The translations under genes and the position numbers were made by a program. Under the pieces are notes generated by a model, which saw only the letters and a program-made list of their open reading frames with translations, made no database searches and was not told the origin of the DNA. Shown here in pieces: positions 16,572-21,072 of a stretch of 33,226 bases of DNA (positions are counted from its first letter, which is position 1; each line of letters starts with the position of its first letter). This stretch comes from a bacterium. Lineage in GTDB: Bacteria > Cyanobacteriota > Vampirovibrionia > Gastranaerophilales > Gastranaerophilaceae. The DNA lies in contig JAFUPZ010000125.1 of NCBI GenBank assembly GCA_017472545.1, positions 1 to 33,226 of the forward strand, read 5' to 3'.

Positions 16572-17129
16572 TTATTGCTCAATTTTTTTAATCACCTTAC
16601 AAGGATTTCCAACCGCAACAACATTAGATGGAATATCTTTCGTTACAACAGAACCAGCACCAATTACCGCCCCATTACCAATCGTTACATCTGGTAAAAT
16701 TGTAACTCCGCCACCAATCCAAACATTTTTGCCTATCGTGATTGGTTTTGCAGATTCTATACCCTTGTTACGTTCTTCGGCTTTTAGAGGATGAATCGCG
16801 GTATAAAATCCGCAATTTGGGCCGATAAAAGTATTATCTCCAACTTTAATTTTTGCACAATCCAAAAATACACTATTGTGATTTATATAAACAAATCCGT
16901 CAAATTCAATATTATATCCATAATCACAGAAAAAATTCGGCTCAATTACGCTATCTCTGCCATAATTCCCTAGTAAGGAAATTAAAATTTCTTTTTTCTC
17001 TTCTTGTTGAAATGGCGAAAGTGAATTATATTGCATACACAATTTTTTCGCATTCAATCTATCTGCAACAAGTTCATCACAATTTGGATTATAGCATTCT
17101 CCGTTCAACATTTTTTCGCGTTCTTGCAT
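16572..17129 (-). CDS. Sugar O-acetyltransferase (maltose/galactoside/NodL type)
   Basis: Left-handed beta-helix acetyltransferase of 185 residues, transferring acetyl from acetyl-CoA to a sugar hydroxyl. The N-terminal maltose-acetyltransferase domain starts MLNGECYNP at 7-15; hexapeptide repeats run from about 60 to 170 (VFLDCAKIKVGDNTFIGPNC, ITIGKNVWIGGGVTILPDV, IGNGAVIGAGSVVTKDI). The catalytic His is H113 in FYTAIHPL. The C-terminus NVVAVGNPCKVIKKI is typical. I chose the ATG at 17129 because AAGGGG lies 8 nt upstream; an upstream in-frame ATG adds 10 residues. The acceptor sugar is unknown. Confidence 0.9.
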   Translation of the reverse strand: MQEREKMLNGECYNPNCDELVADRLNAKKLCMQYNSLSPFQQEEKKEILISLLGNYGRDSVIEPNFFCDYGYNIEFDGFVYINHNSVFLDCAKIKVGDNTFIGPNCGFYTAIHPLKAEERNKGIESAKPITIGKNVWIGGGVTILPDVTIGNGAVIGAGSVVTKDIPSNVVAVGNPCKVIKKIEQ

Positions 17130-17182
17130 AATTAAACCCCTTTTAGCAAATTTTAACACATCTTGAACAAATTTCCAACAAG

Positions 17183-17211: not shown

Positions 17212-17234
17212 CCGAATATGAAAGGGATTTAGAT

Positions 17235-17813
17235 ATGATTAAAAAAGTTTTACTTGGAATAATTGCAATATTTATTTTTGTTTTCACATTTGCAAATATA
17301 GCAGAAGCTGTATCTACAAACACTTCTGCAAAAAAAGTTACACCTCCATGGGATAAAAAAATTATCAAAGTCTATGTCCCACAAGATACTAACGCTGCAG
17401 CTATGAAAAATGCATTTGGGAAATGGCAAACAGTTAGTAGCGGAAAAATTCAATTCCAATATGTGCCAAAAGATAAAGCTGATATTACTGTAGAATTTAC
17501 TGACAAAGCTGAGGGATTAGAAAGTAAACTTGGCGGATACTCAGTAGGAAGCACAGATGGTAAGAAGAAAGCAACTATCAAAATCGCAAGCAAAAGCCCT
17601 GCTGCTAAAAAATACTCAAAAGATTATATGTACATAACTATGCTACACCAAGTTGGTCATGTTCTTGGATTACCTGATAATAGTACAAAACCAACAAGTA
17701 TAATGTATATGCCAATATCAGAAAAACAATCTGTCTTAAAAATAGACGTTAGAAAGCTATACTCAACCTATGGCTGGTCATACGCTAATCGCAATATGCC
17801 AAGTCAACGTTAA
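17235..17813 (+). CDS. Matrixin-like secreted protein with degenerate active site (pseudoprotease)
   Basis: A 192-residue protein with an N-terminal signal peptide (KK, hydrophobic core, AEA-V near residue 25) and a matrixin-like domain matching the two genes next door. Its motif reads HQVGHVLGLPDN at 138-149 where the neighbours have HEIGHALGIFDH and HEIGHAIGLGGH: the catalytic Glu is Gln139 and the third zinc His is Asn149. The Met-turn (TSIMYMP) remains. With both changes it should not be a working protease. The frame is intact and has a good promoter and ribosome site, so it looks maintained, perhaps as an inhibitor, decoy or binding protein. Its stop is interleaved with the next gene through TTAA. 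Confidence 0.85.
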   Translation: MIKKVLLGIIAIFIFVFTFANIAEAVSTNTSAKKVTPPWDKKIIKVYVPQDTNAAAMKNAFGKWQTVSSGKIQFQYVPKDKADITVEFTDKAEGLESKLGGYSVGSTDGKKKATIKIASKSPAAKKYSKDYMYITMLHQVGHVLGLPDNSTKPTSIMYMPISEKQSVLKIDVRKLYSTYGWSYANRNMPSQR

Positions 17814-18349
17814 TCCCAACCGTATAACTTACTTATAAAATCAACGTCATACTTTGTAATAGCCTGATTTCTACTAGCTTTTGCATAGTACATAATACTG
17901 CTTTTATTTGGAGAATGGTCAAAAATACCTAATGCATGGCCTATTTCGTGCACCATAACTCTATATACTGCATCTTTTCTAAATAGCGCACCATTTGGAG
18001 ATCTTTCAGAAATTGTTATCTCAGCAAAAATCATATGTCCACCCATAGACCTATGATAAGTTTGTCCAATTGTTGTTTTATTCCCAGTTACATCATAAAT
18101 ATCACGAACAAATTTTACTTTTATTTGTGCTTTTTCAGGGTCTTGAACATATTTAAATGCAATTTTACCCTTTGTTGCAGTTGTCCAAGCAGAAAATGCT
18201 TGTTTCATCAACGCAGATTTTGAATGTGGCTGAATATATGTTCTAATCGTCTTAGGATTATCCCACACTGCATTTGCCAAAACCTGTGAACAAGTTGTTA
18301 GGAAAAATGAAAAAATTAAAACAAATAATAGTAAAATTCTTTTCATCAT
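17810..18349 (-). CDS. Matrixin-like secreted zinc metalloprotease
   Basis: A 179-residue secreted zincin. The signal peptide (MMKRILLLFVLIFSFFLTTC, then VLANA-V) is followed by the KTIRTYIQPHSKSALMKQAFSAWTTATKGKIAFKY segment typical of matrixin N-terminal strands. The zinc motif is VHEIGHALGIFDH, an HExxHxxG...H variant with the third His one residue later than in animal matrix metalloproteases; the Met-turn is SSIMYYA. I chose the ATG at 18349 because AAGGAGA lies 6 nt upstream; the upstream in-frame ATG would place that site inside the gene. The LTTC segment is a poor lipobox. It follows a sister gene with 14 nt between, so the two form an operon. Confidence 0.87.
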   Translation of the reverse strand: MMKRILLLFVLIFSFFLTTCSQVLANAVWDNPKTIRTYIQPHSKSALMKQAFSAWTTATKGKIAFKYVQDPEKAQIKVKFVRDIYDVTGNKTTIGQTYHRSMGGHMIFAEITISERSPNGALFRKDAVYRVMVHEIGHALGIFDHSPNKSSIMYYAKASRNQAITKYDVDFISKLYGWD

Positions 18350-18363
18350 ATCAATCTCCTTAA

Positions 18364-18921
18364 TTACCATCCATAAACTTCATCAAGCCATTCTAAATCG
18401 CCTTTTGAAATTTCTTGTCTATCATCTTCTGTCGGATACATAATACTCATTGGATCATCAGAATGTCCACCAAGTCCAATTGCATGTCCAATTTCGTGTA
18501 ACATTACAGTATATACAGCATCTCTACCAAGCTGAACACCTGTAGAAGTTTTTTCTGCAATATAAATAGTTGAATGAATTAATCTATTTCCACTAATAAA
18601 ACGTGACCTTGTCAATCCAATTTCGCGCTCTGCATTCGGTACAATATTAACAAACTCTACCACAATATCTGCCGTAGCTTTTGAAGTTACATAACGAAAA
18701 ACAATCTTGTTATTTGTTTTTCTTGACCATTCTGCAAATGCATTTTTCATCATTTGAGTTCTTTTGTGGTTTGGTGGAATATAAGTTTTAATCTTTTTAG
18801 GAAATTGCCATCTACGGTTTTGACTCTCAGCAGCAAAAGCTTCTGGCGCAACAGTTACAGGCATTATAAATGTCGCTAAAAATGAAAAAATTATACAAAA
18901 TATAATAACAATTTTTCTCAT
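18364..18921 (-). CDS. Matrixin-like secreted zinc metalloprotease
   Basis: A 185-residue paralogue of the neighbouring metalloproteases. The signal peptide runs to about residue 30 (AFA-A). It shows KKIKTYIPPNHKRTQMMKNAFAEWSRKTNNKIVFRYV, then ADIVVEFVN and a hydrophobic strand before the zinc motif MLHEIGHAIGLGGHSDDP, with all three His and the Glu present, and the Met-turn MSIMYP. Matrixins cleave peptide bonds in extracellular proteins; substrates here are unknown. There is no visible propeptide cysteine switch. AAGG lies 7 nt before the ATG. It is first in a two-gene operon and divergent from the helicase gene. Confidence 0.88.
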   Translation of the reverse strand: MRKIVIIFCIIFSFLATFIMPVTVAPEAFAAESQNRRWQFPKKIKTYIPPNHKRTQMMKNAFAEWSRKTNNKIVFRYVTSKATADIVVEFVNIVPNAEREIGLTRSRFISGNRLIHSTIYIAEKTSTGVQLGRDAVYTVMLHEIGHAIGLGGHSDDPMSIMYPTEDDRQEISKGDLEWLDEVYGW

Positions 18922-19068: not shown

Positions 19069-21072
19069 ATGGGAAATGAAATCGTTACAACAGAAGAGAA
19101 TAAACCTACACGCAAAAAATATGTTTTAAAAAAGCGTGAAGCTACTAAAACTGATTACAAGGTTAATTATGAAACAGACCTAAATCAGGCTCAACTTGAT
19201 GCAGTGACATCAAAAGAAGGTCCTATTCTAGTTATTGCAGGCGCAGGTTCTGGTAAAACCAAAACCCTTACATACCGTGTCGCAAGATTAATTGAGGATG
19301 GGATAAAACCTGAAAATATCCTTCTGCTAACTTTTACAAAAAAAGCTGCAACAGAAATGCTTTCTCGTGCAACAATCGTACTTGATGACAGATGCGAAAA
19401 GGTTGCCGGTGGAACATTTCATTCTTTTGCCAACATAATTCTAAGGAAATATTCAAATTTACTAAAACTTAAAAATAATTTTACAATATTAGATAAAACA
19501 GATTGCGAAGATATTATAAATCACATAACAGGGCAACTTTACCCTAAAAAAGAAAAACGATTCCCTAAAAAATCTACAATCTTAGAAATCTATTCAAAAA
19601 GTGTTAACAAAGAAACTCCAACCAAACAAATTATTGAGGATGAGTTTCCACAATTTGCACACTGTGAAGATAAAATCATCGAAATTCACAAAGCATACGT
19701 TGCTTACAAACGAGAAAACTCCGTTTTGGATTACGATGATTTACTGTTGTATATAAAGCTTTTGCTTGAAAATAACGAAAATTTGAGAAAAACTCTTTCA
19801 AATCAATATCAATACATAATGGTTGACGAGTACCAAGACACAAATACCCTTCAGGCTGATGTAATTAAACTATTGGCCTCTGAGCATAACAATATTATGG
19901 CTGTTGGAGATGATGCCCAAAGTATTTATTCTTTCAGAGGGGCAAATTATAGAAACATTTTAGATTTCCCAAAACTTTTTGATGGAACAAAAATAATTAA
20001 ACTTGAGCAAAATTATCGTAGCACCCAAAATATCTTGAACCTAACTAACACAATAATTTCAAGAGCAAAAGAAAAATTTGCGAAAAACTTATTTTCAGAA
20101 ATTCAATCACCTGTAATGCCAGCTTTAATCTGTGCTAAAGACACTCAAATGGAAGCTGATTTTATTTGCCAAAGAATCTTAGAATTACTTGATGAAGATA
20201 TTAGTCTATCGGACATTTGTGTTCTTACACGTAATGCCAGAATGTCATATTCTTTGGAGATTGAACTTTCAAAACGAGCAATTCCATTCCAAAAGTTTGG
20301 CGGTCCAAAATTTATGGAAACGGCACATATAAAAGATGTTGTGGCTCATTTAAGAGTAATTATCAACCCTGATGATGTGATAAGTTTGAACAGAATTTTA
20401 TTACTATTAAAAGGTATTGGGGCAGCTACTGTAAACAACATCATGCCAGTAATCAAAGGGCAATTAAACCCTGATGTCAAACTTTTACCATCAAACAAAA
20501 CTACAAGCATTGTTCCAATGTTAAAAACTTTGGACAAATTAAGAAACTTCATCGCAACAAAAAAACCGTCAGATATAGTTGAGGAAGTAATCAATTACTA
20601 CCTACCAATATTAAAAGACAAATATGATGATTTTAATAAACGTGAAAAAGATTTGGATCATTTTCAGTACTTGGCAGGTCAATACTCAAATTTGGAAGAT
20701 TTTATAAGTGATATAGCGCTTGAGCCACCTGACGCTAGTGTTGAAGAAATGTATAAAAGAAATTCTGATGATGAAGCTTTAACTATTTCTACAATCCACT
20801 CGGCTAAAGGTTTGGAGTGGGATAGCGTATTCATTATTGGTGCTGTTGACGGAAGATTTCCAAGCGCGTATTCATTCAATTCTGAAGAAGAAATGGATGA
20901 AGAGTTGCGCTTGATGTATGTTGCAACAACTAGAGCGAAGAATAATCTATATATCACATATCCAGTTGATATGTACGATTATTCTATGAATATGGTATTA
21001 TCAAAACCATCAAGATTTTTAGACAATATTCCAGATGATATTCTAGAACTTTGGGATATTACAGAAGGATAA
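19069..21072 (+). CDS. UvrD/PcrA/Rep-family ATP-dependent DNA helicase
   Basis: Superfamily 1A 3'-5' DNA helicase of 667 residues acting in repair or replication restart. Motifs in order: Q-motif LNQAQLDAV at 38-46, Walker A AGAGSGKT at 57-64, Ia TFTKKAATEM, II VDEYQDTN around 252-259, III GDDAQSIYSFRGA, IV LEQNYRST, V TISTIHSAKGLEWD and VI EELRLMYVATTRAKNNLYITYP. A basic 30-residue N-terminal extension precedes the Q-motif. It ends soon after motif VI, without the C-terminal RNA-polymerase-binding tail of PcrA, so uvrD, pcrA or rep cannot be told apart. RNase HI follows after 48 nt and is probably in the same operon. Confidence 0.93.
   Translation: MGNEIVTTEENKPTRKKYVLKKREATKTDYKVNYETDLNQAQLDAVTSKEGPILVIAGAGSGKTKTLTYRVARLIEDGIKPENILLLTFTKKAATEMLSRATIVLDDRCEKVAGGTFHSFANIILRKYSNLLKLKNNFTILDKTDCEDIINHITGQLYPKKEKRFPKKSTILEIYSKSVNKETPTKQIIEDEFPQFAHCEDKIIEIHKAYVAYKRENSVLDYDDLLLYIKLLLENNENLRKTLSNQYQYIMVDEYQDTNTLQADVIKLLASEHNNIMAVGDDAQSIYSFRGANYRNILDFPKLFDGTKIIKLEQNYRSTQNILNLTNTIISRAKEKFAKNLFSEIQSPVMPALICAKDTQMEADFICQRILELLDEDISLSDICVLTRNARMSYSLEIELSKRAIPFQKFGGPKFMETAHIKDVVAHLRVIINPDDVISLNRILLLLKGIGAATVNNIMPVIKGQLNPDVKLLPSNKTTSIVPMLKTLDKLRNFIATKKPSDIVEEVINYYLPILKDKYDDFNKREKDLDHFQYLAGQYSNLEDFISDIALEPPDASVEEMYKRNSDDEALTISTIHSAKGLEWDSVFIIGAVDGRFPSAYSFNSEEEMDEELRLMYVATTRAKNNLYITYPVDMYDYSMNMVLSKPSRFLDNIPDDILELWDITEG

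Follow-up and report, generated by a model that had tools for sequence, protein, structure and literature searches.

An orthologous gene for a small secreted matrixin-like protein (group A) in a genus of Gastranaerophilales has lost its active site repeatedly, beside sister genes (group B) that never do. The losses are confined to A, the reading frame and fold are kept, and inactive copies are held under purifying selection in species other than the one in which the first case was seen. That case lies in the window, i.e. the whole stretch of DNA that was analyzed (33,226 nt), and from its sequence it looks like a young one and the mildest of the series (a single base, known from one MAG); the general finding is independent of it. 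The explanation placed first here, judged about equally likely to be right or wrong, is that selection maintains the secreted matrixin A for a role that is independent of cleavage and probably consists of binding, hence its repeated conversion to a pseudoprotease. The intact and inactive versions found in related gut species form natural pairs in which decay and new function can be tested against each other. Animal and plant pseudoproteases are well documented. For inactive bacterial matrixins, a search of the open-access full-text literature found no example, and a search on proteases of Gastranaerophilales gave nothing relevant.

Locus and active-site motif in the window

The window carries three ORFs for secreted matrixin-like proteins (192, 186 and 185 aa), all of which exceeded the Pfam Matrixin (PF00413) cut-off. 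A sequence-only reading of this DNA had described them as a cluster of three paralogues, the third with an intact frame of matching length, and both descriptions were confirmed. The features of the locus are as follows.

16572..17159, minus strand: maltose O-acetyltransferase-like gene (named by eye), conserved flank of the locus
17221..17226, plus strand: AAAGGG, ribosome-site-like, 8 nt upstream of the ATG of A (by eye)
17235..17813, plus strand: group A gene, encoding a secreted matrixin-like protein of 192 aa that in the source genome is a predicted pseudoprotease
17235..17309, plus strand: signal peptide-like N-terminus of A, residues 1–25 (...ANIAEA|VST; cleavage site by eye)
17646..17681, plus strand: active-site region of A, HQVGHVLGLPDN; the motif reads HQVGHVLGLPDNS
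17646-17648, plus strand: H138, first motif His of A
17649-17651, plus strand: Q139 in place of the catalytic Glu, codon CAA
17658-17660, plus strand: H142 of A
17676-17678, plus strand: D148 at the third-ligand position of A
17679-17681, plus strand: N149 of A
17703..17705, plus strand: Met-turn methionine M157 (SIM), kept in window A
17810..17813, both genes: TTAA in which A and the nearest B gene, which are convergent, both have their stop codon
17810..18370, minus strand: B gene nearest A, active-type matrixin HEIGHALGIFDH; internal Met8 is a possible start
18364..18921, minus strand: second B gene, active-type matrixin HEIGHAIGLGGH
19069..21072, plus strand: UvrD/PcrA-type helicase gene (named by eye), conserved flank on the B side

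The N-termini of all three proteins were signal-peptide-like by eye, and in the AlphaFold2 model of A a helix (residues 3–19) was followed by a disordered stretch (23–35). The signal peptide and ribosome site proposed earlier for A were thus borne out by eye. The proposed promoter was not, as a consensus scan located 13 sites against 11.3 ± 3.3 in shuffles, which is no excess. The two B genes overlap by 7 nt and are therefore probably transcribed together. The source genome, a fragmented MAG of 1.5 Mb that is 82% complete, encodes two more M10 proteins elsewhere.

The A protein scored 46.8 bits against the Pfam Matrixin cut-off of 24; its match to Pfam M7 (PF02031) was below the cut-off (15.3 vs. 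25 bits), and a weak NCBIfam snapalysin match was obtained. The AlphaFold2 model of window A (pLDDT 82) and that of a HEVGK protein from genus g9, described below (pLDDT 89) matched karilysin and MMP catalytic domains with Z of about 13–15 (window A against MMP domains, 14–15), and as modeled the matrixin (metzincin) fold is kept.

The two minus-strand sisters read HEIGHALGIFDH and HEIGHAIGLGGH, retaining the active-type motif ascribed to them, and the catalytic Glu of the third paralogue is indeed replaced by Gln139 (CAA at 17649-17651). The replacement of a third zinc ligand by Asn149 was not upheld. The third ligand of HExxHxxGxxH occupies position 11, and in the window motif, HQVGHVLGLPD, that position is D148 and not N149. 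The third His of B sits one residue beyond the canonical place (HExxHxxGxxxH), and N149 seemed to align with it because the loop of the sisters is one residue longer. Asp was the commonest position-11 residue among the A genes of the genus; His, Glu, Asn, Ser, Gly, Val, Ile, Leu and Thr also occurred. A double hit at the catalytic center was therefore rejected, D148 being usual in A and N149 not being a ligand position. Judged against its orthologues, window A carries one derived change and not the two separate ones proposed, namely E139Q, a single-base substitution (GAA to CAA, base 17649) at a codon that is GAA or GAG in the orthologues. The Met-turn Met was present in the aligned A and B genes. 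B-type matrixins at many related loci often carry a late third His, up to HEIGHAIGFQGSHEHS in L046.

Window A lacks the full HExxHxxGxxH (catalytic Glu plus three His) and would be classed as a matrixin homologue, not as a canonical matrixin enzyme. It also departs from HExxHxxGxxD, the zinc-binding motif of snapalysin and other Asp-zincins (PMC3890501), in that the Asp is present and the Glu replaced; many of its orthologues carry this motif complete. The intact A genes are plausibly active, since HExxHxxGxxD is an Asp-zincin zinc motif. By these scores and motifs A is best described as a matrixin with a snapalysin-like ligand and not as a snapalysin, since the M7 match is below and the Matrixin match well above the cut-off. 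With E139Q, window A is a protease-family homologue without a residue required in catalysis, which is one of the marks of a pseudoprotease. Designation as a pseudogene on the basis of the frame was rejected, the frame being intact.

Active-site losses among the orthologues

Of the 46 genomes from the genus, 39 yielded an A gene with a readable motif. The A genes formed one clade (support 98 in one tree and 90 in another), and in most species a helicase gene is followed by one to three B genes, by A in convergent orientation and by an acetyltransferase gene. Orientation of A and B was tail-to-tail in all 33 assembled pairs, and in 28 of these the genes lay within 40 nt of each other or overlapped. 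In L168 and L169 (G033 and G005) the helicase and a B gene were present and A was absent, an apparent clean loss of A. The nearest orthologues of window A (L066 and L045; 62–65% identity, clade support 96/99) occupy the same pcrA-B-A-acetyltransferase locus, retain HEVGH and Asp, and both have GAA at codon 139. Q139 was found in the window gene alone among A genes. Conservation of Q139 in orthologues, which had been suggested as a check, is thus absent, and a pseudoprotease with Q139 fixed at this locus was discarded. The sequence-only reading had counted canonical HExxH orthologues at the locus, or frameshifts in relatives, against repurposing; the former exist, as HEVGH in the sister species, and the latter were not found, no stop or frameshift breaking the frame in any of the 39 A genes.

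A core residue of HExxH (H1, E2 or H5) was lost in eight of the 39 A genes. These are the window gene (HQVGH), L060 (HNIGL), L051 and L053 (QEVGH, with Asn at position 11) and a K/R clade made up of L056, L059 and L068 (HEVGK) and L072 (HEAGR). No such loss was seen in 66 B genes of the genus, nor in 147 non-A matrixins of this and related genera, the inactive lineage of g9 being set aside. Fisher tests gave p = 2.2e-4 (A vs. B of the genus) and p = 2.0e-6 (A vs. the 147), on sequences that are not independent. Five losses in A were counted by parsimony. Branch lengths summed to 14.9 within A and to 32.3 for everything else sampled, which gave a probability of every loss falling in A of 0.003 for five losses and 0.01 for four. 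Five is the parsimony count and three the cautious floor, because AU tests permitted a single loss for L051 and L053 (p 0.38) and a joining of L060 with the K/R clade (p 0.32). The inactive copies retain 25–33 of the 34–36 positions that are at least 90% conserved among intact A genes. Repeated loss of the active site in A and never in its neighbors, with the remainder of the protein kept, suggests that A is useful beyond cutting. As a counterpoint, most A genes keep HExxH, and cleavage is presumably useful in many species for that reason.

Selection on inactive copies and a second lineage

Codon models with branch classes were fitted in Python; synonymous sites were saturated on most branches, and the omega values are rough. 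For the K/R clade (four species; two zinc ligands lost) omega was 0.067–0.071 and omega = 1 was rejected (2dlnL about 200), all branches of this clade postdating the loss provided that it happened once. For the window branch omega was 0.06–0.07 and 1 was rejected (2dlnL about 18), Q139 being datable to anywhere along that branch. On the L051, L053 and L060 branches omega was roughly double the background value and still well short of 1 (foreground vs. background 2dl 5–7), a faster evolution such as relaxed constraint would give. In other species, inactive versions of A thus persist under purifying selection. To that extent the earlier proposal of repurposing rather than decay is supported in part; its argument from two changes is not.

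A second, independent inactive lineage was found in genus g9, which belongs to the same family: in six of its species a matrixin carries HEVGK or HQVGK, with Ser as the position-11 residue. In all six it shares the strand of fliE and fliF and lies directly upstream of them (flagellar names by eye from the sequence), as in the following example.

L153, 2272-2853, plus strand: matrixin
L153, 2990-3358: fliE
L153, 3504-5219: fliF

The same order was repeated in L155, L156 (the HQVGK form), L234, L235 and L236. A seventh species, G310, has a more degraded relative (KSVGL) at a different locus. At L214 (2000-2572, minus strand) a matrixin relative reading KSVGL has no HExxH residue left and its frame is open. 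None of 29 other fliE loci from other genomes had a matrixin upstream of fliE, and a pre-fliE matrixin as a family-wide habit was rejected on this count.

The g9 group formed a clade separate from A (support 99). Membership of the g9 HEVGK family in A was considered, as the A profile scored slightly better, and was rejected since the tree places it on a separate branch; by this placement the family is treated as convergent with A. For the six g9 genes omega was 0.055 and 1 was rejected at 2dlnL 417, and the least diverged pair gave dN 0.029 and dS 0.458 (NG86). On these unsaturated data, inactive matrixins of these bacteria are kept.

Proposed binding role of A and alternatives

In appearance the majority of A proteins are functional enzymes whose third ligand is of the Asp type (HExxHxxGxxD). 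Under the preferred explanation, selection on A would keep mainly the folded secreted domain and a binding surface, and not cleavage; A would have been converted to a pseudoprotease several times, and B never, because the selected role does not need cleavage. Window A is predicted not to hydrolyze substrate because the general-base Glu is gone. By analogy with MMP mutants it would retain its affinity for zinc and for a peptide (substrate or inhibitor), and would act as a non-cleaving binder, whether trap, competitor or scaffold. Such binding is likely because His138, His142 and Asp148 remain and because Glu-to-Gln MMP mutants serve, by the entry titles of 4jij and 1eak, to hold substrates. Binding rather than cleavage is, we infer, the function most consistent with all of the cases, its possible targets being host proteins, substrates, inhibitors and the sister proteases.

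The best structural match of window A was karilysin of Tannerella forsythia (M10; 4in9, Z 15.4, rmsd 2.7 over 139 residues, about 19% identity), which is likewise a single-domain secreted matrixin fold; karilysin has the full HExxHxxGxxH, whereas window A has Gln for Glu and Asp as third residue. The usual A motif is that of snapalysin (M7) and the Asp-zincins. The model also matched 1eak (proMMP-2 E404Q) and 4jij (inactive MMP-9 with peptide). These laboratory mutants carry by design the inactivating Glu-to-Gln substitution that is natural in window A, and 4jij, by its entry title, is an inactive MMP-9 mutant that still holds a peptide substrate; the Asp presumed to be the third ligand sets window A apart from them. 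ADAM pseudopeptidases (unc-71, ADAM2) have a metzincin fold in which HExxH residues are lost and the Met-turn is retained (PMC11266112). They are large animal membrane proteins, whereas A is a small secreted bacterial single domain in which, unlike in the ADAM proteins, independent losses have recurred at one orthologous locus.

The chief alternative is relaxed selection, in which A is partly redundant beside active B, its active site decays occasionally, and the window gene has gained no new function and is at an early, passing stage of that decay. It accounts for the single-base change in the window, the intact nearest orthologues, the fast evolution of L053, L060 and L051, and the entire loss of A in G033 and G005, where B is kept. 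It is nevertheless considered unlikely. The K/R clade has outlived several speciations at omega about 0.07 with two zinc ligands gone, the 39 A frames are free of stops and frameshifts, and an inactive gene is kept in seven species of g9.

An inactive relative may regulate an active one, as the Trypanosoma prozyme and the iRhoms do (PMC5201418, PMC11248996). On the analogy of Trypanosoma AdoMetDC and its prozyme, A would form a heteromer with the co-located B and regulate it. The tight, conserved tail-to-tail neighborhood of the 33 pairs, the fold and signal-peptide-like leaders shared by A and B, and the precedent of inactive paralogues as regulators (PMC5201418, PMC11266112) are in keeping with this. 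Set against prozyme and the iRhoms, A and B are separable in the genome and a complex of the two is hypothetical. Convergent genes are not co-transcribed, and the inactive g9 gene has no adjacent active matrixin. In the K/R species A lies apart from B (A adjoins a kinase gene in L056, L059 and L072, and B genes adjoin the helicase in L057, L170 and L171) and yet stays conserved, so that its upkeep does not depend on the B neighborhood. Because A of this clade, the best supported of the inactive ones, no longer adjoins active sisters, a role tied to them, such as the inhibitor or decoy function suggested in the sequence-only reading, is weakened, short of exclusion. Regulation of B by A is given a low probability.

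Comparably improbable is that base 17649 was misread or misassembled, or represents a minor strain variant, and that the true gene encodes an intact HEVGHVLGLPD enzyme. A single-base difference (GAA to CAA) in a fragmented MAG that was the one genome available for its species, with GAA in the two nearest relatives, would fit, but C for G is atypical of homopolymer error, and independent losses of the Glu, as HNIGL in L060 and as HQVGK in L156 (another genus), show that such alleles do occur.

Extended to both lineages, the preferred reading of a role without cleavage becomes a tentative one, held at slightly under even confidence: that Gastranaerophilales have dedicated secreted pseudo-matrixin families, derived independently from active ones and in at least two genera by the same change of the second zinc His to Lys (HEVGK), with a catalysis-free function (binding, or a structural Glu-Lys pair replacing zinc), and that in one genus the gene is now tied to the flagellar fliE-fliF locus. 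In the HEVGK forms the Lys, one turn from the Glu, could at a guess fill the empty zinc site. The HEVGK-type A protein of L068 (2305-3039, plus strand) is extended at its C-terminus by about 50 residues of low complexity.
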